Source: Methanospirillum hungatei
GTDB taxonomy: Archaea > Halobacteriota > Methanomicrobia > Methanomicrobiales > Methanospirillaceae
DNA length: 12,630 nucleotides
Assembly: GCF_020216685.1 (NCBI RefSeq)
Contig: NZ_JAIWNS010000150.1
Location: forward strand, 1 to 12,630
Reading direction: 5' to 3'
Shown here: positions 264 to 10,211 of the stretch, piece after piece
Layout: every line of letters starts with the position of its first letter
Numbering within the stretch: position 1 is the stretch's first letter
The notes under the pieces: generated by a model
Databases searched by the model: none
Seen by the model: only the letters and a program-made list of their open reading frames with translations
What the model was told of the DNA's origin: nothing
Position numbers and translations under genes: made by a program

Positions 264-1184
264 ATGATCGGTAAATTTTCAATGGGGATCATTACTCTTG
301 TGCTGGGAGCAATGCTTCTCTGTGGGACAGTATCAGCTGCTGATGTAACACTTCCTGAGCACAGTGCAGATCGTCTATTAATTGGGACCACAACCAGTCT
401 TGATGCAACCAAACTTCTTGATGTACTTGCAGAGAAATTTGAAGCTGCAAACAATGTCGATGTACAGTGGGTTGCAGTAGGAACTGGTCAGGCTCTTGAA
501 TATGGTAAGAACTGTGATGTGGACATTGTCATGGTCCATGACCGTGTTGCCGAAGATAAGTTCATCGATGAAGGTTTTGGAGTTGATCGTCGTGTCTTTG
601 GATATAACTACTTCCTCCTTGTCGGACCTGAAAACGACCCGGCAAAGGTTTTTGGACTGAATGGAACTGAAGCATTCATGGCAATAGAAAAGGCTGCAGG
701 ACAGGATCCATCAATTGTCTTTGTATCCCGTGGAGACAACTCCGGAACCCATTCACGTGAAAAACTTCTCTGGAAATTAGGTGGATATGACTATGCAGAG
801 ATCAACACATCACCCTGGTATCGTGAAGCCGGCGCTGGAATGGGTCAGACCCTTTCCATGACAAATGAACTTCAGGGATACACCTTAAGTGATTCTGCAT
901 CTTGGGGAACATATCAGAGCAATCTTACTCTTGTTCCGCTCGTTGAGAATGATCCAGCTTTCTTGAATGTCTATGCAGTCATGCGGGTTGATGACAAAGT
1001 CTGTCCTGATGTCAATACAGAGATGGCCAAGAAGTGGATCAATTTCATGATAAGTGATGAAGTTCAGGACTTGCTCTCTGTATATGGCGTAGAAAAGAAC
1101 GGTGTTCCATACTTTAACCCAGGTCGTGGCAATGCAGCGATCATGGGAGTCACCAACGAAGAGACCAAAGATCCGGTTGTATAA
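264..1184 (+). CDS. tupA: Tungstate ABC transporter, substrate-binding protein TupA
   Basis: This is an extracytoplasmic binding protein that captures tungstate (possibly also molybdate) and delivers it to the TupB-TupC transporter. The 306-aa product begins with a hydrophobic signal peptide (residues about 5-25, ending GTVSAA). The mature part has the TupA hallmarks: GTTTS at 41-45 for the oxyanion pocket, AVGTGQAL at 71-78, FVSRGDNSGTH at 153-163, and YTLSDSASW in the C-terminal lobe at 206-214. The TTTS and SRGD-SGTH signatures separate the TupA family from ModA and WtpA. It heads a + strand cluster with tupB 36 bp downstream. I kept the ATG at 264; the in-frame ATG at 282 (M7) would still leave a workable signal peptide. 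No strong ribosome-binding site is seen, so leaderless or short-leader translation is likely. The ligand is inferred from the family. Confidence 0.93.
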   Translation: MIGKFSMGIITLVLGAMLLCGTVSAADVTLPEHSADRLLIGTTTSLDATKLLDVLAEKFEAANNVDVQWVAVGTGQALEYGKNCDVDIVMVHDRVAEDKFIDEGFGVDRRVFGYNYFLLVGPENDPAKVFGLNGTEAFMAIEKAAGQDPSIVFVSRGDNSGTHSREKLLWKLGGYDYAEINTSPWYREAGAGMGQTLSMTNELQGYTLSDSASWGTYQSNLTLVPLVENDPAFLNVYAVMRVDDKVCPDVNTEMAKKWINFMISDEVQDLLSVYGVEKNGVPYFNPGRGNAAIMGVTNEETKDPVV

Positions 1185-1189
1185 CCCAA

Positions 1190-1206
1190 TCTTCTTTTCT
1201 TTTTCT
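1190..1206 (+). terminator. Pyrimidine/T-rich tract after tupA, possible partial terminator
   Basis: The 36-bp gap between tupA and tupB begins with TCTTCTTTTCTTTTTC right after the tupA stop. Archaeal RNA polymerase stops at T-rich tracts without a hairpin, so partial termination here could make binding-protein mRNA more abundant than permease and ATPase mRNA. Only the tract itself is seen; the function is inferred. Confidence 0.4.
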
Positions 1207-1220
1207 AACCAACACAAATT

Positions 1221-1907
1221 ATGAATGATCTGCTTACCGGTATCCAAACAGCATTTCTGCTGATACTAACAGCAGATTCAGAAGTGCTGGATATTACCTT
1301 CAGAACTCTTCAGATTACCTTTTCATCGGTTCTTATCAGCACAATAATTGCAATCCCCCTTGGAGCGATTATTACTTTCAATGAATTTTGGGGAAAAAAG
1401 AGTCTTATCAGCGTAATACAAACATTGTACGCCTTACCTACCGTCATTGTCGGACTATTATGTTTCATGATACTCTCACGGTCCGGACCACTCGGTACAT
1501 TAGGGTGGATGTTTACTCCGAACGGTATGGTATTTGGTCAGACCATTCTGATTATTCCGATTATGACCGGGCTTACAATTGCAGCACTCCAGGCAATCGA
1601 TCCGATTATTACCGATACTATCAGATCTCTTGGGGCTACCCGGTTTCAGTTTCTGAAAAGTCATCTTCGGGAGGCACGATTCACGATCATGGCGGCAGTA
1701 ATTATTGGATTTTCACGAGCCATCTCTGAAGTCGGTACGGCCATCATGATTGGTGGAAATATCAAAGGCCATACCCGGGTTTTGACGACCGCGATATCTC
1801 TCCAGACGTCCATGGGTAATTTTAATCTCTCACTGGCTCTTGGTATTATCCTTCTTGTGATTGCACTCATTATCAATCTCTTCATGGGAATTGTCCAGAA
1901 CAGGTAG
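1221..1907 (+). CDS. tupB: Tungstate ABC transporter, permease TupB
   Basis: This is the integral-membrane half of the tungstate importer. The 228-aa protein has about five hydrophobic segments (roughly 33-53, 63-86, 105-125, 156-176, 203-225). The cytoplasmic EAA-type coupling loop, which docks on the ATPase, is DTIRSLGATRFQFLKSHL at 132-149. The segment RAISEVGTAIMIGGNIKG (166-183) is typical of TupB/WtpB-type permeases. The length is normal for TupB. The neighbours tupA upstream and tupC, starting 6 nt after the stop, fix the assignment. No Shine-Dalgarno-like sequence precedes the ATG (the bases are AACCAACACAAATT), so initiation may be weak or depend on translation from tupA. Confidence 0.92.
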   Translation: MNDLLTGIQTAFLLILTADSEVLDITFRTLQITFSSVLISTIIAIPLGAIITFNEFWGKKSLISVIQTLYALPTVIVGLLCFMILSRSGPLGTLGWMFTPNGMVFGQTILIIPIMTGLTIAALQAIDPIITDTIRSLGATRFQFLKSHLREARFTIMAAVIIGFSRAISEVGTAIMIGGNIKGHTRVLTTAISLQTSMGNFNLSLALGIILLVIALIINLFMGIVQNR

Positions 1908-1913
1908 GAATGG

Positions 1914-3008
1914 ATGATTGACATAGCAGATATTACAAAAACATTTGACAAGAATACCGTCCTTACCGGTGTGTCTGAAACTATCAGAAAGGGAGAGATC
2001 TTTGCAATCATTGGCCCATCAGGACAGGGAAAGACCACGTTACTTCGGATTCTGGGTCTCCTTGAAAAACCAACAACAGGAGATGTACTTCTGGAAGGCA
2101 AATCCATTGTCAAGCTTTCAGATAATGATCCGGTTCGAAGACGTATCGGAATGGTCTTTCAAAACCCGGTTGCGTTCAAAGACTCAGTCTATCATAACAT
2201 TGCTCTCGGCCTTCATTATCGGGGATTTGGTAAAGAGGAGATTCGAGAGAGAGTTCTTCAGAAACTTGATGAGATCGGACTTTCGGGATATGAGGAGAGA
2301 AAGGCGACAACCCTTTCAGGTGGAGAAAAACAAAGGGTATCTTTAGCCAGGATAATGGTGACTGGACCTGATATCCTGATTCTAGATGAACCTACTGCCA
2401 ACCTTGATCCTGTTTCAACCGAAGTTATCGAAGATCTCATCCGCCATTATAATAAGAAACTTGGCACAACCGTCATCTTGTCCACACACGATCTCATACA
2501 GGGGCAGCGACTTGCTGATCGGGTTGCGGTTATGATGAACGGACATTTTATCCAGTCAGGAACAATTTTTGATGTATTTACCCGACCCTGTTCTGTTGAT
2601 GTAGCGAAATTTATCGGGATTGGAAATATTCTGGTTGGAAAAGTCATCCGAAAAGAAGATGGATTATCTGTCATTCTGGTCCATGACGTCGAGATCCATG
2701 CAATCAGTAATGCCCCGGCAGGAACCAACGTTAGAATCGCAATACGGCCAGAAGAGATAACCCTGCATACTGGTCCAGACCGATGGTCAAGTGCCAGGAA
2801 TGTTATCTTCGGAACCATTGAAGCGGTGAAACCATTTGGTATCATCAGTCATGTGAATGTCAAATCAGGAGAACTGACATTATCGGTTCAGGTAACGTGG
2901 CAGTCTATTCGTGAGCTGGATCTTAAACCGGGTGTTGAAGCAGTCTTATCATTTAAGGCCCCTTCAGTCCATATAATGCCGGAAGAGAATGGAAATGAGT
3001 GCATCTGA
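1914..3008 (+). CDS. tupC: Tungstate ABC transporter, ATP-binding protein TupC
   Basis: This is the ATPase that powers tungstate import at the cytoplasmic face of TupB. The 364-aa product has a complete ABC domain: Walker A GPSGQGKTT (34-42), Q-loop around Q83, signature LSGGEKQR (134-141), Walker B ILILDEP (154-160), D-loop after TANLD (161-165) and the switch histidine H192. From about residue 235 a TOBE-like extension follows, with IRPEEI at about 277 and an SFKA segment near the end. In related importers this domain senses oxyanion and tunes activity, which is a family inference. The ATG at 1914 follows an AGGTAGGA ribosome-binding sequence that overlaps the end of tupB. The 3' end overlaps the next gene by 20 nt, so translation of the two is probably coupled. 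Confidence 0.92.
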   Translation: MIDIADITKTFDKNTVLTGVSETIRKGEIFAIIGPSGQGKTTLLRILGLLEKPTTGDVLLEGKSIVKLSDNDPVRRRIGMVFQNPVAFKDSVYHNIALGLHYRGFGKEEIRERVLQKLDEIGLSGYEERKATTLSGGEKQRVSLARIMVTGPDILILDEPTANLDPVSTEVIEDLIRHYNKKLGTTVILSTHDLIQGQRLADRVAVMMNGHFIQSGTIFDVFTRPCSVDVAKFIGIGNILVGKVIRKEDGLSVILVHDVEIHAISNAPAGTNVRIAIRPEEITLHTGPDRWSSARNVIFGTIEAVKPFGIISHVNVKSGELTLSVQVTWQSIRELDLKPGVEAVLSFKAPSVHIMPEENGNECI

Positions 3009-4116
3009 GAGGCCATTTCTCCACCATTCATACATCCTTTCAGAACTTGCCGGCTCAGCAGGAAATTTTGGGACGGTTCTTCCCCTTCTTTTCGCCGTTT
3101 CAGTATCATGCGGAATGAATATCTCGATTATGCTTCTTTGGGCCGCTGCATGGTATATCATAACAGGTCTCTATTACCGGATTCCCATCCCGGTTGAACC
3201 GCTAAAAGCTGTTGGTGCCATTGCTATTGCTGAGTCAGTCACTCCTCACCTGATTGCTGCTTCAGGTATTGTTATGGGGATCATCTGTTTGTGCATCGGA
3301 TTTTTTGGATGGATGGATCGTGTCAGACAGGTCATTCCTGAACCGGTTATCAGGGGGGTACAGCTTGGCCTTGCACTCATTTTTATTAAAAGTGCAATTC
3401 CCGGTTTTATTCTGCCCGATATTTCCTTTGCATTATTATCTGTGAGTATTGTGGGAGCATTTTTCCTTACACGGAGAGTTGTGAAAATTCCGGATCTCTC
3501 TGCCCTGACCATAATTGTATCAGGATTTTTCGTTGCTATTTTTAGTGCAGGATTTCCATCTTTCATCTCAATTCCTGTTCCTCTTCTTGAAATTCCATCA
3601 CCAAATGATTTTTTTTATGCAACTATCCATTTTGTGCCCCCTCAGCTCCCCCTGACCCTGACAAATGCGATCCTGGCAACATCTCTCCTGGCACATGATT
3701 TATTTAAAAGAGAAGAGAACCCAGATACAATTTGCAAAACGGTCGGTATGATGAGTCTCTCTGCGTCGCTCTGTGGAGGATTTCCGATGTGTCATGGTGC
3801 CGGGGGGCTTGCTGCTCATTACCGGTTTGGTGCAAGGGGCGGGCTTTCATTACTATTTGGGGGAGTGCTCCTATTTATGATAGGAATTCTCTGTTCGGAC
3901 CTGGAGATTTCAGGTGCCCTTCCTGTTGGTATGTTCGGGGTTCTTCTTATTGTGGTAGCCGTTGAACTTGCAAAACATGGACTAAAAACAGATAATATTA
4001 TTGTTTCAGGCTTGATTGCCGTGCTTGCGGTTCCATTTGGTCTTGCTATCGGGTTTTGTGCAGGCCTGATTCTTGCGTGGGTACTTATACACCGAAAGAA
4101 CCATCTCACACCATGA
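2989..4116 (+). CDS. MOT1-family molybdate (sulfate-transporter-like) permease
   Basis: This is a polytopic membrane transporter of the MOT1/SulP-like family (MFS_MOT1), predicted to carry molybdate and possibly tungstate or sulfate. The 375-aa protein is hydrophobic throughout, with about ten membrane segments. It shows the family signatures PVEPLKAVGAIAI (68-80), PEPVIRGVQLGLAL (117-130), a NAILATSLLAHDLF segment (226-239) and GGFPMCHGAGGLAAHYRFGA (263-282); the P-MCHGAGG-A--YRFGAR pattern is also found in plant MOT1. It overlaps the end of tupC by 20 nt, placing a secondary transporter in the same transcription unit as an ABC importer for a related oxyanion. An alternative start is the ATG at 2995 (M3), which has the purine-rich GGAAGAGAATGGAA before it. 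The family call is firm; the substrate is inferred from family and context. Confidence 0.85.
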   Translation: MEMSASERPFLHHSYILSELAGSAGNFGTVLPLLFAVSVSCGMNISIMLLWAAAWYIITGLYYRIPIPVEPLKAVGAIAIAESVTPHLIAASGIVMGIICLCIGFFGWMDRVRQVIPEPVIRGVQLGLALIFIKSAIPGFILPDISFALLSVSIVGAFFLTRRVVKIPDLSALTIIVSGFFVAIFSAGFPSFISIPVPLLEIPSPNDFFYATIHFVPPQLPLTLTNAILATSLLAHDLFKREENPDTICKTVGMMSLSASLCGGFPMCHGAGGLAAHYRFGARGGLSLLFGGVLLFMIGILCSDLEISGALPVGMFGVLLIVVAVELAKHGLKTDNIIVSGLIAVLAVPFGLAIGFCAGLILAWVLIHRKNHLTP

Positions 4117-4122
4117 TTGGAG

Positions 4123-4407
4123 TTAATATTGCTCAGTTTTCGCAACCAACCAATAATCAAACCACCATTTCATGCCCACTAATGAGACGATGAATAAACT
4201 GGTTACTCCATTCGCAAGCATGACAGGAATATCGCCGCTTACTACTCCGTAAATCATCCAGAGAAAAACGCCAACAAGAAGCAGAAATAAAAGACCCCAG
4301 GAGAGATCATGTGCAGACCTGCTTTTCCATGTTTTAACAACCTGGGGAAGAAATGCTATCGTGGTGCATATACCTCCGATATACCCGGTATAAAGCAGCA
4401 TATCCAT
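4123..4407 (-). CDS. SemiSWEET-type transporter (PQ-loop family)
   Basis: This is a small three-helix membrane protein of the SemiSWEET/MtN3 family, which dimerise to form a passive sugar transporter. The 94-aa protein has the expected order: helix 1 ending in the PQ motif AFLPQVVKTWKSRSAHDLS (18-36), helix 2 with the LWMIYGV segment (49-55), and helix 3 with the conserved asparagine N66 and a following hydrophobic run. A W/F/Y-rich tail closes it. It is the last gene of the - strand set (storage protein, trmO, this gene), 39 bp after trmO. Its stop lies 6 bp from the end of the converging MOT1 gene, so there is no room for separate terminators. The family is clear. The solute is not: a sugar is usual, but the neighbours here handle metal oxyanions. 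Confidence 0.85.
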   Translation of the reverse strand: MDMLLYTGYIGGICTTIAFLPQVVKTWKSRSAHDLSWGLLFLLLVGVFLWMIYGVVSGDIPVMLANGVTSLFIVSLVGMKWWFDYWLVAKTEQY

Positions 4408-4446
4408 ACCAGATATCTGTTCAGTACCATATAGGGGTATTGAGAA

Positions 4447-4932
4447 TCAGGAATGAAATCTTTCGTCCGCACTAATTTCAGGAACATTTTGTTGTTTATC
4501 TTCAAGCCACCCTGCTTTTGAATCCGGATATGCATCAAATTTCGGAACATATGGTTTCATATCGAGTAGCGGAGGCCCGTCCAGAATATCCACATCCCGG
4601 ATGAAAAGTCGAGTTTCTTTCACATCTATTAACCGAATCACTGAAAACCCGATCCAATTTGGTCTTCGGGGAGCCCTGGTTGCAAAAAGACCTCTTTTTG
4701 TGGTATCAAAATATGGTGTCACCTGAAGTGAAAATCCATCACACCGATGAAAAAAATACAGAAGTATAATCCTCTCAAACCCGGTGATATCCGATAGTCC
4801 TTCCAGGTATTGTGGAAGTATATCAATATACCCTACAATGTCAGAAGCGCCTGATGGTTGAACCGGCATACCGGTTGGTTCAGAAAAAGGACTGTGTATT
4901 ATCCCGATTGGGGTGACACAGCAGGTTTCCAT
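4447..4932 (-). CDS. trmO: tRNA (N6-threonylcarbamoyladenosine37-N6)-methyltransferase TrmO
   Basis: It is predicted to use S-adenosylmethionine to methylate t6A at position 37 of ACN-decoding threonine tRNA, making m6t6A (formerly TsaA/YaeB/VirR family). The 161-aa protein carries the family marks: IGIIHSPF near the N-terminus (9-16), FATRAPRRPNWIGFS (83-97) and LDGPPLLDMKPYVPKFD (117-133). It is the short archaeal form without the C-terminal extension of the E. coli enzyme. The motif usually reads RPNPIG; here it is RPNWIG. Its start codon shares one base with the stop of the upstream storage-protein gene (TAATG), which indicates translational coupling. A direct link between this tRNA modification and metal storage is not known to me. 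Confidence 0.88.
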   Translation of the reverse strand: METCCVTPIGIIHSPFSEPTGMPVQPSGASDIVGYIDILPQYLEGLSDITGFERIILLYFFHRCDGFSLQVTPYFDTTKRGLFATRAPRRPNWIGFSVIRLIDVKETRLFIRDVDILDGPPLLDMKPYVPKFDAYPDSKAGWLEDKQQNVPEISADERFHS

Positions 4933-5747
4933 TACTCGGCCCGGATTATGGTACCAACCTTTTCGCCTTTTATAGCCTGGGTAATCATTCCAGGTTTATG
5001 CCCATTCACTATCTGAACCTTTTTGATGTTTCTACACTCAAGCATCAGCTCAACGAGTTTTCGCTCAAGGACAAGATCTTCCATGTCCATTGCTATCAGT
5101 TCACTTGCAGTAATTTCTGGAATAAGCTCTGCATCCGGGTACTTTAGGGGGTGTTTGTCATAGAGCCCGTCTACATTCTTCGCTAATATACAGCTCCTGG
5201 CTCCAAGTACCTCTGCTGCCAGAAAGGCACCGGTGTCAGTCCGGTGAGGAGGAATACCGCCATTTGTCCGTTCAGACGGATGTTCATACAGCCCGTACGG
5301 TGGTGTGCCGTGGGTAACCGGGAGCGCCCCCATTCCAAGGAGGGTCGGCAGCTCAAGGAGATCGCTGGTATGAATTCGTTTTGCCTTATAGGGTGCGAGC
5401 AGGGTGGCCATCATCATCGCATTCTGCTCAGAAATCTTACTGGTCAGTTCCGCAAGAACCCCGGTTGGCATCCCCAGATCAAGGCCGATATCCATGATAT
5501 GCCTGACCCTGACTCCTCCTCCGGTAATAATCATCAACTGGTGTTCTTTTGATAAAGCACCAATCTCATCAACCAGAGGAAGGACAACATCCCGGCCATA
5601 ATCAATGATCCCATGTCCACCGATTTTTATTACATTCAGTTCAGGGAGGATTCGCAGGAGCGGGCGTTCGTTATACCGATCAAATAATCCTTTCCGTACC
5701 AGGGTTTCGCCCTGGAGTTTGTTAAAAATCTCATGTCGCTCGTGCAT
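4932..5747 (-). CDS. Molybdenum storage protein (MoSto)-like subunit, amino-acid-kinase fold
   Basis: This is a homologue of the subunits (MosA/MosB) of the molybdenum/tungsten storage protein, a hexameric cage that uses ATP to build polyoxomolybdate or polyoxotungstate clusters. The 271-aa product has the UMP-kinase-like fold signs and MoSto-like stretches: LNVIKIGGHGIIDYGRD (37-53), IITGGGVRVRH (73-83), LGMPTGVLAEL (91-101), the PPYGLYEHP loop (149-157), IPPHRTDTGAFLAAEVLGAR (165-184), NVDGLYDKHP (191-200) and VQIVNGHKPG (244-253). General databases often label such proteins 'uridylate kinase'. The ATG follows a full GGTGATCC ribosome-binding sequence (- strand, 5755-5748), and a TATA-like AATATATC lies at 5795-5788. 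Only one subunit gene is present here, whereas Azotobacter has two. Location beside tungstate and molybdate transporters supports the storage role, but true UMP kinase activity is not excluded. Confidence 0.82.
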   Translation of the reverse strand: MHERHEIFNKLQGETLVRKGLFDRYNERPLLRILPELNVIKIGGHGIIDYGRDVVLPLVDEIGALSKEHQLMIITGGGVRVRHIMDIGLDLGMPTGVLAELTSKISEQNAMMMATLLAPYKAKRIHTSDLLELPTLLGMGALPVTHGTPPYGLYEHPSERTNGGIPPHRTDTGAFLAAEVLGARSCILAKNVDGLYDKHPLKYPDAELIPEITASELIAMDMEDLVLERKLVELMLECRNIKKVQIVNGHKPGMITQAIKGEKVGTIIRAE

Positions 5748-5761
5748 GGATCACCATAATA

Positions 5762-5851
5762 ATTTATAAATAAGATGAGATACTATAGATATATTGTTGA
5801 TAACCAACTGGTATACCACGTGTGTATACTTCTGTTGGTCTTTAGAGGTGA
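5762..5851. promoter_or_regulatory. Divergent promoter with stepped dyad between the MoSto-like gene and the 67-aa gene
   Basis: The 111-bp gap between the two divergent genes holds TATA-like elements TTTATAAAT (5763-5771) and GATATATT (5788-5795; AATATATC on the - strand). The latter is well placed to start - strand transcription about 19 bp before the MoSto-like ATG. To its right is a symmetrical element with arms ACCAAC (5803-5808) and GTTGGT (5834-5839) outside, and GTATAC (5811-5816) and GTATAC (5824-5829) inside. GAGGTGA (5845-5851) is the ribosome-binding site of the + strand gene, 7 nt before its ATG. The dyad could bind a regulator for both directions or fold in the + strand leader. 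Confidence 0.45.
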
Positions 5852-5858
5852 AAAAATT

Positions 5859-6062
5859 ATGAAAATCTTTGTTCGTGAAAGACAAAAAGTCGGTGCGGGA
5901 GTCAAGAGCCCCAAATACCGTATCGTAGCCGTTACCGGAGGACAGATCCAGGTCGTTGCAACTCATTTCAGAAAAATTGAACTTGAGATGATCGCAAAGG
6001 AAGTCGGTGCTGAGATCGTCTGGCTTGAACCTGTTCCCGATGACCAGAAGAAAAAACACTAA
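5859..6062 (+). CDS. Small basic protein of unknown function, 67 aa
   Basis: I do not recognise this family by name. The product begins MKIFVRERQKVGAG and is rich in beta-forming residues, with a GGQIQVVATHF stretch and then an amphipathic helix (KIELEMIAKEVGAEIVWLE). It ends in a lysine/histidine-rich tail. I chose the ATG at 5859 because GAGGTGA sits 7 nt before it; the longer reading from 5775 would add 28 hydrophobic residues through the promoter region and is unlikely. It is transcribed away from the MoSto-like gene and lies 47 bp before the next + strand gene, so those two may form an operon. The good ribosome-binding site and protein-like sequence make it a convincing gene without a predicted role. 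Confidence 0.72.
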   Translation: MKIFVRERQKVGAGVKSPKYRIVAVTGGQIQVVATHFRKIELEMIAKEVGAEIVWLEPVPDDQKKKH

Positions 6063-6109: not shown

Positions 6110-6469
6110 ATGCCATCGCTCTCAATCGAAGGCCTCTTTGAATCCGCGGTAAAAATTTTCCTTTTCGAAGATAACGCGGTAACTATAACGTTTTCCAGAG
6201 AAGGAATTCATATTAGATTCCCAACAACCCGGCGCCTTGCCGAGTACCTGGATGTACCACATTACTATATCCTCCCGTACTTTGCCATGATGGAAGAGCA
6301 GAATCTGGTAACACGGGCTGAACGGGTGGGTATACTCACAACAAGCAAAGGAACACAAAAAATCGTTTCATTCATGGCGCATCTTCATCCTGAAGAGAGT
6401 ACTGCTATGCTTGGTGTAGCAGTTTTTAATGAGATAGTAAAAATGACAAAACATGATAATGAGGAGTGA
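6110..6469 (+). CDS. Winged-helix-like protein, 119 aa, function unknown
   Basis: A small cytoplasmic protein with the look of a winged-helix DNA-binding domain. The segment TRRLAEYLDVPHYYILPYFAMMEEQNLVTRAERVGILTTSKG (about 39-80) fits a helix-turn-helix (LAEYLDVPHYYILPYF) followed by a short wing in which TTSKG closes the hairpin, a pattern common in archaeal regulators. The C-terminal part (VFNEIVKMTKHD) is helical and may dimerise. It follows the 67-aa gene by 47 bp without a clear ribosome-binding site, and its last codons overlap the start of a 41-aa reading frame. A regulator of neighbouring genes is possible but nothing in the sequence names a target. The fold call is by pattern only. 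Confidence 0.65.
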   Translation: MPSLSIEGLFESAVKIFLFEDNAVTITFSREGIHIRFPTTRRLAEYLDVPHYYILPYFAMMEEQNLVTRAERVGILTTSKGTQKIVSFMAHLHPEESTAMLGVAVFNEIVKMTKHDNEE

Positions 6470-6584: not shown

Positions 6585-6627
6585 AAAATATTTATCTTTT
6601 GATGAATTGTAAGCTAAAATATGTACC

Positions 6628-6660
6628 AACTGATTTTCAACTGTTTTTCAACTGTTATAT
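6628..6660 (+). promoter_or_regulatory. Three helically phased CAACTG repeats upstream of the TiaS-like gene
   Basis: CAACTGATTTT, CAACTGTTTTT and CAACTGTTATA follow one another directly, with AACTG at 6629, 6639 and 6650. The steps of 10 and 11 bp put the three motifs on the same face of the helix. The 208-bp gap 6585-6792 otherwise shows only AT-rich sequence (AAAAAATATTTAT near 6584-6596) and no gene that I can support. The array is a candidate regulator-binding site. Confidence 0.42.
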
Positions 6661-6792
6661 CAGAATGATTATCGTGCCTCTTCTAAAAAATTAGACCCAG
6701 TTTAATCGATTCATATCAGAAGTATGATACCTTCTGCCGTGTACCTGTATGAAGAATTATCACTCATTTGCCTTGGGTGGCAGGATTTTTAT

Positions 6793-7491
6793 ATGACTGT
6801 ATATGTTTCACTTGATGATACCGATATGCCTGATAGTCCGGGAACCGGCAGACTTGCCAGGGATCTGTTCAGTCTGCTTGAACAACGATACCAGCTTCTT
6901 GGTATTACCAGACATCAGCTCTATGTTCACCCAGATATTCCTTACACATCCCACAATAGTGCAGCAGTCATACATATCCACACCGTCCTTCATGAAGAAC
7001 AAGATGCACTATTTGATGAGATAGCGCGATTTGTTCGATCACGTGCCGCCAGAGGAAGTGATCCTGGAATCTGCATGGCCATCCATGAATCTGTTACTCC
7101 GGCTCTTATTCTCTTTGGAAAAGAGGCAAAATCAACCATTCTTACCCAGGACCAGGCAATGACCCTGGCTCTCCATACCAAAGTGCGTCTTGCAGGACTT
7201 AATGGAACCAAAGGAGGTATTATCGGAGCTCTTGCAGCCGTGGGCCTTGCAGCTAGTGGATCAGACGGAAGATACATACAGGTTGGAAAAATCAGAACAC
7301 TGCGGGGTAAGGCAGTAATATCTGTAATTCATGATGCAGGAATCCCCGCCGTATATTCAATTGATGGAAAAGCAATTGATTCAGGAGAAGTCAGGTTTCG
7401 AAAGTTCCCCCAGCCAATGAGGATCAATCACTGTCCGGTACTGTTTGTCAGGGAAGATCAGGGTTCCTTAATAGTGGAACGGCGGGATTGA
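6793..7491 (+). CDS. TiaS-like protein (catalytic-domain paralogue of tRNA-Ile2 agmatinylcytidine synthetase)
   Basis: The 232-aa product resembles the N-terminal catalytic part of archaeal TiaS, which attaches agmatine to C34 of tRNA-Ile2. Matching features are the early acidic motif VSLDDTDMPDSPGTGR (5-20; TiaS has IDDTD followed by a Gly/Thr stretch), HPDIPYTSHNSAAV (46-59; TiaS NPxIPYKTRGNGAV) and TKGGIIGALAAVGL (139-152; TiaS KGxGxIGALAAVG). Missing are the C-terminal OB-fold and zinc ribbon that hold tRNA in full-length TiaS (usually above 400 aa), so this is probably a paralogue with its own substrate. I chose the ATG at 6793, after GGTGG (6776-6780), because family homology starts at once; the ATG at 6724 would add 23 unrelated residues. 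The gene seems to stand alone and ends at T-rich DNA. The similarity is judged from memory. Confidence 0.6.
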   Translation: MTVYVSLDDTDMPDSPGTGRLARDLFSLLEQRYQLLGITRHQLYVHPDIPYTSHNSAAVIHIHTVLHEEQDALFDEIARFVRSRAARGSDPGICMAIHESVTPALILFGKEAKSTILTQDQAMTLALHTKVRLAGLNGTKGGIIGALAAVGLAASGSDGRYIQVGKIRTLRGKAVISVIHDAGIPAVYSIDGKAIDSGEVRFRKFPQPMRINHCPVLFVREDQGSLIVERRD

Positions 7492-7547: not shown

Positions 7548-7793
7548 TCACAGGCCGGCGCGATCCAGTATAAGGTTTGCAAGGGCCTCTGCGGATTCGA
7601 TTGGGAAATCGGTGGGTTTTATGAACCGTCCAAACAGGTCTCCGGTGTTACAGACGACAAGTCCGCCGACAGAAATATTGCTTTCTGCACCCTTCGGTAA
7701 TCCGGCATAGACTTCATCCACGGATGATACCGGAAATTTGACTCCTTTCATCGCTTCGATCCACTTTGAGAACAATTCATCACGCATACCCAT
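7548..7793 (-). CDS. MTH865-family protein
   Basis: This 81-aa protein belongs to the MTH865-like family, small helical proteins found mainly in methanogens and known structurally from Methanothermobacter; no biochemical role is established. The match is clearest at the C-terminus, KPTDFPIESAEALANLILDR followed by AGL (59-81), which parallels the DDFPFKSAEEVADTIVNKAGL end of MTH865. The N-terminal FPVSSVDEVYAGLPKG (20-35) parallels FPINSPEELMAALPNG. Transcription runs against the TiaS-like gene. A TATA-like GTAAATTATT (- strand, 7830-7821) would place the transcript start within about 10 nt of the ATG, and no Shine-Dalgarno sequence precedes it, so leaderless translation is likely. An in-frame ATG at 7787 (M3) is the alternative start. 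Confidence 0.82.
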   Translation of the reverse strand: MGMRDELFSKWIEAMKGVKFPVSSVDEVYAGLPKGAESNISVGGLVVCNTGDLFGRFIKPTDFPIESAEALANLILDRAGL

Positions 7794-8959: not shown

Positions 8960-9157
8960 TTATAAAACTTTAGAAATGTTTGCGATAAGAGCTGCCTCTT
9001 TTCCGACATATGGAGATCCCGCCAGGCTTTCCATCATTTCTTTCCCAATGATAAGTTCTTTTTCTGCCTGGGGAGTGGTGATATTATCTGCTTCCAGAAG
9101 CATCTCAGACCTACAGAGATGCATGTATGCAGAACAAATCTCTTTATTATCTGACAT
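8960..9157 (-). CDS. Small helical protein or gene remnant, 65 aa
   Basis: The frame reads MSDNKEICSAYMHLCRSEML at the N-terminus and ends in a helix-prone segment (AEKELIIGKEMMESLAG, then VGKEAALIANISKVL). It is rich in E, K, A and L and looks more protein-like than any frame on the other strand. AGGGGA lies 5 nt before the ATG. However, its first six or so codons lie antisense to the first recognisable part of the response-regulator pseudogene. The start may therefore have been created when two broken genes were joined, with M12 or M19 closer to the original coding part. I know no family for it. Confidence 0.38.
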   Translation of the reverse strand: MSDNKEICSAYMHLCRSEMLLEADNITTPQAEKELIIGKEMMESLAGSPYVGKEAALIANISKVL

Positions 9158-10211
9158 TCTTTCCCCTGATTACACTATCCGGCCTGCTTCAAGTGGATCT
9201 CTGGCTCTGCAATCCCTTGAATATGCAATTCCTGATATCATCCTCCTGGATTTCAGGATGCCAGATATGGATGGATATGAAGGAATATCAAAATTCAAGC
9301 CGATGAGAATACCTGCGACATCCCAGTCATATTTATTAGTGCTCTGGACGACGTTTCCGATAAAGTGAAGGGTTTACCCTTGGGGCTGTGGATTATATCA
9401 CCAAACCATTTCAATCTGAAGAAGTACTTGCGAGGATCGAGACACATCTGACTATTCACCGTCTGAAAAAGCAACTTGAACAGAGAAACAGTGACCTTAA
9501 TAAAGAAATATTCATCAGAAAATAGGCTGAAGAGGAGTTACGGCGGTATCAGATTCATCTTGAGGAACTTGTAGAGGAAAGAACAGGCGAACTGAAAAAT
9601 AGTGAGGAACAGTATCGTTCTCTTGTGAATAATCTGAATGCAGGTGTTTTTAGATTTGTCCCGACATCATCCGGACAATGGAAATGGGTAAATCCAGCCT
9701 TTTTAGCAATTTTCGGATACCCTTCTATTGATGAAATGGGGAGTATAAGGGTCATTGATTTATTTCAATCAGAAGATGACTATCATGACCTGGAAAAAAT
9801 CTTCAGGAGACAAAAGTTATCAGAAATATTGAATTGAGGGCGAAAAAGAGGGATGGAACACCGATATGGATAACGGTCACTGCTCAGGTCAGATATCATT
9901 CTGCTGGAGGTGTAGCCTGGATTGACGGGATATGCGATGACATCACGGTTGAGAAGGAGCAGGAGCACAGGATAAAGACTGCTGTGGCACAGATCAATAA
10001 AAATATGGAGATGCTCGCGATACTCAATGATCAGATCAGAAATCCACTGACGGTCATCGCCTGTTATACTGCCGACCTTGGTGATGAGCTTGCAGACAAT
10101 ATCATGAAGCAGATCGCGGTAATTAACCAGATTGTTGATAAACTTTACAAAGGATGGATTGAATCAGATAAGATCCGCAACTTTCTTATGAAACATTATG
10201 GTATTGGATAA
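9138..10211 (+). pseudogene. Decayed REC-PAS signalling protein (5'-truncated, three frameshifts, one nonsense)
   Basis: Joined across frames, the segment encodes a receiver domain, a coiled linker, a PAS domain and a degenerate H-box. The receiver starts abruptly at ISLLSDILSPDYTIRPASSG, so its N-terminal strand and acidic pair are lost. It keeps the phospho-acceptor region ILLDFRMPDMDGYE and the ITKPF lysine. Single-base losses shift the frame near 9298-9301 (KFK|ADENTCDIP), near 9374-9378 ([10 protein letters not shown]) and in CAAAAG at 9811-9816. A TAG at 9523-9525 replaces what should be CAG in an RK-Q-AEEEL linker. The PAS part holds FRFVPTSSGQWKWVNPAFLA. The end has LNDQIRNPLTVI, an H-box with Asp in place of the phosphorylated His, and WIESDKIRNF before the stop, without an ATPase domain. 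It presumably once took part in chemo- or redox-sensing. With four lesions it is not functional as a whole. Confidence 0.88.

Follow-up and report, generated by a model that had tools for sequence, protein, structure and literature searches.

A 12,630-nucleotide stretch of DNA from the archaeon Methanospirillum hungatei (hereafter the window; contig C174 within a 3.0-Mb draft genome that is 90% complete) appears to carry a tungstate/molybdate uptake-and-storage island, in which a Tup-like importer and a MOT1-family transporter candidate lie close to a homolog of the molybdenum storage protein (MoSto), accompanied by a small partner protein, here called sm1, and by a candidate shared operator and regulator. 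We place the probability of this reading at about 60%. Methanogens depend on tungsten (W) and molybdenum (Mo) enzymes, and since much of this grouping of genes recurs in related methanogens, and part of it in bacteria, the island probably serves as a dedicated system for metal storage. Family-level gene identities, the co-location and co-occurrence of the genes, and a DNA motif and its position were observed, and the fold of the candidate regulator was modeled; from these we infer metal storage, a preference for W, an oligomer, the role of sm1 and the identity of the regulator. Genes were called from open reading frames, profile searches (Pfam and NCBIfam) and sequence comparison with the PDB. 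The initial annotation had placed a TupABC importer, a MOT1 transporter and a MoSto homolog at positions 264-5747 in two converging units, and these coordinates and this layout were confirmed. The genes that it named are present, but it omitted a SemiSWEET gene and a trmO gene inside the interval, as well as sm1 and a winged-helix gene, which begin just outside it and are the genes most tightly linked to MoSto.

The MoSto homolog (positions 4932-5747, minus strand), a candidate W/Mo storage protein, is a single-gene member of its family by its PDB matches, its position in a tree and its conserved residues, and is 97% identical to a Methanospirillum sp. protein. When compared with the PDB it matched MoSto beta (E value 4.2e-58) and alpha (1.4e-52), versus 1.1e-10 for the best uridine monophosphate (UMP) kinase. 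It was the only MoSto-type gene found in the draft, 90% complete genome, which thus showed no pair of different alpha and beta subunits. A MoSto alignment and maximum-likelihood tree were produced from 54 rows hand-chosen from fetched proteins and loci, and in this tree the single-gene archaeal and bacterial proteins formed one group (support 98/99) apart from alpha and beta. Tandem MoSto copies found at one archaeal locus (L056) paired with one another and not with alpha and beta. By this sequence-based criterion the group is a third MoSto clade, single-gene and neither MosA nor MosB. Within it, the ATP-site Lys41 and Pro149 and Pro150 were present in 41 of 41 rows and Tyr151 in 39 of 41; Lys41 and Pro149-Pro150 were conserved across the 41 single-gene, 10 beta and two alpha rows, while the PPY loop is a gap in the UMP kinase of the same genome. 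Also constant in the single-gene group were His45 and Glu155 (41/41 each) and His146 (38/41), and alpha has the Glu as well.

In Azotobacter vinelandii, MoSto (MosA/MosB, PDB 2ogx and 4f6t) forms a hexameric cage that stores Mo/W as polyoxo clusters. The window protein resembles it as a relative of the amino-acid-kinase fold with the ATP-site lysine and the PPY loop. It differs in being encoded by one gene rather than two, in lying outside the MosA and MosB clades and in having replaced the ligands of the octamolybdate (Mo8) cluster, and the window system adds the adjoining sm1, the candidate operator and the candidate regulator.

The co-location seen in the window, whose absence from related genomes would have counted against the initial interpretation, does recur across the order Methanomicrobiales. 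A MoSto homolog was present in 152 of the 232 genomes of the order at an E value of 1e-30 or better. We hand-chose 40 loci across genera of the order and counted neighbors within 8 kb of MoSto using fixed bit thresholds; seven of the 40 were too short to give 8 kb on each side. Tup or MOT1 was near MoSto in 36 of these loci (MOT1 in 28, TupA in 24), sm1 in 37 and the winged-helix gene in 33, and in the three loci without sm1 inside this distance (L053, L055 and L068) it lay 9-15 kb off on the same contig. Gene order and strands around MoSto vary among the loci, which indicates that the proximity outlasts rearrangement. Among 61 archaeal loci from a collection of named genomes, many of them on short contigs, sm1 was found in 59, the winged-helix gene in 51 and Tup or MOT1 in 44, and eight loci from other families of the phylum gave 8, 6 and 4, respectively; the 40-, 8- and 80-locus sets share organisms, and genomes of relatives do not count as independent cases.

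The sm1 gene (positions 5859-6062, plus strand) is divergent from MoSto in the window and encodes a conserved protein of 67 amino acids to which we assign no function and which had no Pfam match. A genome search found sm1 in 155 of the 232 genomes: MoSto and sm1 were both present in 151 and both absent from 76, with MoSto alone in one and sm1 alone in four. In the genome with MoSto alone (G216), visual inspection of the 696 bases upstream showed no sm1-like frame, and the four with sm1 alone are drafts that are 62-84% complete. Nine genera were mixed for the presence of MoSto, and the 33 MoSto-lacking genomes entered by hand from these genera, each at least 90% complete, were also without sm1. 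Where MoSto was duplicated in tandem (L056, L057, L074 and L095, all from one genus), sm1 was doubled too, each MoSto copy having its own divergent sm1. An alignment of 38 of the listed archaeal and bacterial sm1 rows showed that Lys2, Arg6, Arg8, Pro18, Ala24, His36, Arg38, Glu41 and Ala51 were kept; these residues are mostly basic and would be suited to contact with an oxyanion or ATP. The AlphaFold2 (AF2) model of sm1, with a predicted local distance difference test (pLDDT) score of 81, has the order strand-strand-helix-strand and gave no confident match in a structural search. Separately, two loci (L065 and L090) carry two consecutive sm1 copies beside one MoSto.

The region between the divergent MoSto and sm1 genes is 111 bases long in the window (positions 5748-5858). 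We trained a motif on the 92 distinct sequences among 106 such regions, and a 22-column motif of 27 bits with the consensus TGATATACCAACTGGTTTACAA was present in 86 of the 92, the remainder of the region differing widely among genera. The motif is a near-perfect dyad around ATACCA-N2-TGGTAT. Shuffled regions had a 99% point of 3.5 bits versus a median of 27.8 bits for the real regions, which are those that trained the motif. The window site, a candidate palindromic operator at positions 5797-5818 on the minus strand, scored 25.1 bits and was itself in the training set. It was the best of the three highest-scoring window sites, followed by sites upstream of a TiaS-like gene (12.5 bits) and of tupA (8.8 bits), the maximum in 20 shuffled windows being 7.4. 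The operator-like site upstream of tupA (positions 159-206) includes an inverted repeat with perfect 10-bp arms at 167-176 and 197-206; upstream of the TiaS-like gene (positions 6619-6662) a second site of 7.0 bits, within the range of the shuffled windows, accompanies the first.

Across loci, scores above 3.5 bits were found upstream of TupA in 25 of 70 cases versus 0 of 69 inside the gene. The same threshold was passed upstream of the TiaS-like gene in 7/40 (inside the gene, 0/40), TupB in 6/77 (1/77) and MOT1 in 1/67 (0/67), and was not passed upstream of TupC (0/76; inside, 2/76), TrmO (0/31; 0/31), SemiSWEET (0/18; 0/18) or the winged-helix gene (0/99; 0/99). A strict 18-base pattern searched in 231 genomes gave 31 distinct sites in 30 genomes, and its reversed form none. 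For the 30 strict-pattern loci that were fetched, one per genome, a MoSto start lay beside the site in all 30 and sm1 on the other side in 29; the 31st site (G179:C322) is 71 bases from sm1 on a contig with no listed MoSto match. The strict pattern had no match in the window's own genome, and a search of the genus allowing two mismatches gave hardly any excess over the control.

Downstream of sm1 lies the gene for the winged-helix protein (positions 6110-6469, plus strand; 119 amino acids), a candidate regulator without a Pfam or NCBIfam match. Over the 232 genomes it was present together with MoSto in 144 and absent together with it from 74, with MoSto alone in eight and the winged-helix gene alone in six; 29 of 48 rows were aligned. 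The best structural matches of its AF2 model (pLDDT 92) were to the DtxR, MntR and IdeR family of metal-responsive repressors. With this predicted fold, the protein is the natural candidate for binding the MoSto/sm1 operator.

The transport genes lie on the plus strand in the order tupA (positions 264-1184), tupB (1221-1907), tupC (1914-3008) and the MOT1-family gene (2989-4116). TupA scored 192.4 bits (E value 9.5e-57) against NCBIfam NF041772 and matched the tungstate-binding protein 3lr1 (E value 9.6e-50), which is among its closest solved relatives, two better matches being unspecifically named. The TupB permease passed the cut-off of the subfamily model NF038017, and the TupC ATP-binding protein passed those of PF00005 and, for a C-terminal TOBE domain, PF03459. 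Gene order A-B-C, the sequence relatives of TupA and the TOBE domain on the ATPase are all as in known TupABC importers. However, the NCBIfam equivalog cut-offs were not reached by TupA (192 of 400 bits) or TupB (NF041773, 165 of 320 bits), and we therefore call these genes Tup-like; their identity is well supported at the family level rather than the equivalog level, and archaeal Tup members may lie outside the equivalog models. The MOT1-family protein matched PF16983 in two stretches (163 bits, cut-off 30), a family found above cut-off in 156 of the 232 genomes, and had no solved relative found by sequence. In the available text of a 2018 survey MOT1 is not listed for archaea (PMC6147048), and on their sequences the archaeal PF16983 proteins are candidate Mo/W transporters. 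The initial annotation proposed that two transporters, supposedly of different affinity, feed the store. Both are indeed present, but the count was incomplete because the genome holds three further Mod/Wtp-type permease operons (contigs C209, C138 and C175), which brings the candidate Mo/W uptake systems to at least five; what had been observed was confirmed and its interpretation partly supported. The ModB-type operon on C138 (G000:C138:14001-18594) lies about 3 kb from a nitrogenase-type PF00148 gene on the same contig and may encode a Mo importer that is linked to nitrogenase and distinct from the Tup/MoSto island.

The same type of MoSto, 62-67% identical, was found in records of Geobacter, Geomonas, Citrifermentans, Pelobacter, Anaeromyxobacter, Desulfuromonadales and Acidobacteriaceae. 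The bacterial rows are nested inside the archaeal group in the drawn tree, beside the L056 tandem copies (support 95/92), and one row labeled archaeal (P0112) groups with the bacteria. This nesting suggests gene transfer of MoSto between archaea and bacteria. Of 19 bacterial loci, 17 have sm1 close to MoSto, always downstream of it, and in 16 the two genes are on one strand. Of the two without it, one contig (L112) ends 240 bases past MoSto, and the other (L119) has a shortened sm1-like frame downstream. One bacterial locus (L114) has the order TupA, TupA, TupB, TupC, MoeA, MoaC, a MoCF_biosynth protein and MoSto, and another (L155) has an aldehyde ferredoxin oxidoreductase (AOR) gene about 2.5 kb beyond MoSto. 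In both, genes of Mo/W metabolism, in L114 including those for molybdenum cofactor synthesis, accompany this MoSto type in a second domain. The sm1 profile had no match in the 18.7-18.8 kb around MosAB on two Azospirillum plasmids.

If these genes work together, Tup and MOT1 would import the oxyanion, tungstate or molybdate, for storage in the single-gene MoSto-type protein, which probably forms an ATP-using, homo-oligomeric cage. The small basic sm1 might assist this cage by capping it, by helping to load it or by carrying the oxyanion. A single divergent promoter would serve both MoSto and sm1 and contain a dedicated palindromic operator, for which the neighboring winged-helix protein with its DtxR-like predicted fold is the most likely binder. 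Weaker copies of the operator precede tupA and the TiaS-like gene, so that metal status probably controls uptake and storage together. A fuller scheme is possible and is put forward tentatively. In it, sm1 would be a second, previously undescribed component of the cage formed by the single-gene MoSto, and the two together an archaeal W store, shared with Geobacter-type bacteria by transfer and, in methanogens, under the control of a dedicated regulator with a DtxR-like fold that acts at an operator of its own.

The choice of metal is the point on which the closest alternative turns. The same island might store Mo, or both metals alike, and serve nitrogenase and molybdo-enzymes, which we consider rather unlikely. 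The genome has nitrogenase-type genes (PF00148) at four places and molybdopterin domains at seven, MOT1 and MoSto carry Mo in their names, and the A. vinelandii MoSto is reported to take both W and Mo (PMC6448029). Against a Mo store, the adjoining ABC importer is Tup-like, a separate ModB-type permease is found near a PF00148 gene, and the gene near MoSto in L155 belongs to the AOR family, which is counted as tungsten-dependent in the survey cited above (PMC6147048). A different kind of alternative is that the MoSto homolog is in fact a nucleotide kinase, such as a diverged UMP kinase, there by chance, and that its co-location is inherited synteny. Several public records do say uridylate kinase, and there is some similarity to UMP kinases. 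This is nevertheless very improbable: the protein scored 80 bits against pyrH_arch, under the cut-off of 158, while a genuine UMP kinase (L004, 257 bits) is encoded elsewhere in the genome; the neighbors stay close while order and strand change; MoSto and sm1 are jointly present or absent in the nine mixed genera; and there is a dedicated operator candidate.

Three observations weigh against the uptake-and-storage island that we prefer. Tup was found in only three of the 19 bacterial loci at the thresholds used, and the neighbors tested in L123, L110 and L106 were non-Mo/W genes or matched no family. The third concerns the A. vinelandii alpha subunit, in which Mo8 is bound covalently by Glu129 and His156 (PMC4504029); at these columns, counted on 2ogx_A, the window protein has His126 and Gly152. 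Since the covalent ligands are not conserved, the cluster chemistry of the A. vinelandii protein cannot be assumed to hold here. The same loss could be expected if the MoSto homolog were instead a protein of the amino-acid-kinase fold that senses oxyanions, or an enzyme that processes them, in an ATP-dependent manner, and if sm1 regulated it or carried its substrate. Proteins of this fold include regulators, and sm1 is linked to MoSto as strictly as a co-subunit. However, MoSto subunits are by far the closest solved relatives, the PPY loop absent from the UMP kinase is retained, and MoSto beta likewise lacks the covalent ligands, so that we regard a sensor or enzyme as improbable.

Many archaeal members are already named molybdenum storage protein or uridylate kinase in public annotation, and the MoSto label itself is therefore not new. 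The A. vinelandii MoSto was stated to have no known homologs in protein databases (PMC6448029). In the open-access literature searched, as far as its texts were available, we found neither a MoSto-type protein in archaea nor the buffering of scarce W/Mo in methanogens described. A single-TOBE-domain protein of the Tub/Mop type, Tub of Eubacterium limosum, has likewise been proposed to store W alongside Tup uptake, but it is another protein (PMC11980592). As far as this literature goes, the single-gene clade with its constant residues, sm1, the operator, the neighbor with a DtxR-like predicted fold and the archaeal-bacterial sharing are new. About two thirds of the genomes sampled from the order have a storage-type module, and its matched small partner and recognizable operator offer a direct experimental handle. 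Known from structures of the Azotobacter protein, the MoSto family would extend to archaea and Geobacter-type bacteria, and the unnamed sm1 family would gain a first functional hypothesis.

Between the two converging units, on the minus strand, lie the SemiSWEET gene (positions 4123-4407; NF037968, 88.5 bits, cut-off 80), probably a passenger, and the gene for the tRNA methyltransferase TrmO (4447-4932; TIGR00104, 117 bits, cut-off 93), which has base 4932 in common with the MoSto stop codon. Beyond the winged-helix gene, a TiaS/marker-11-like protein is encoded at positions 6724-7491 on the plus strand (TIGR03280, 53 bits, cut-off 256; TiaS_TCKD also below cut-off); homology begins near residue 23, so that the true start may be downstream. 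MoSto has a gene of this kind no more than 8 kb away in 15 of the 40 hand-chosen, 23 of the 61 named archaeal and 10 of the 19 bacterial loci, and the product of this gene is a possible ATP-dependent helper. Three genomes with only a TiaS-level match were dropped from the tally, which went from 116 to 113. In L123, L128, L132, L137, L144, L155 and L177 the TiaS/marker-11-like gene is upstream of MoSto. Farther along the window are an MTH865-family protein (PF07747; positions 7548-7793), response-regulator-like and PAS-like frames in pieces, recognized by eye and perhaps a decayed sensor kinase (8976-10211), and a NudC/NUDIX-like frame, also recognized by eye, that is cut by the contig end (11861-12628).

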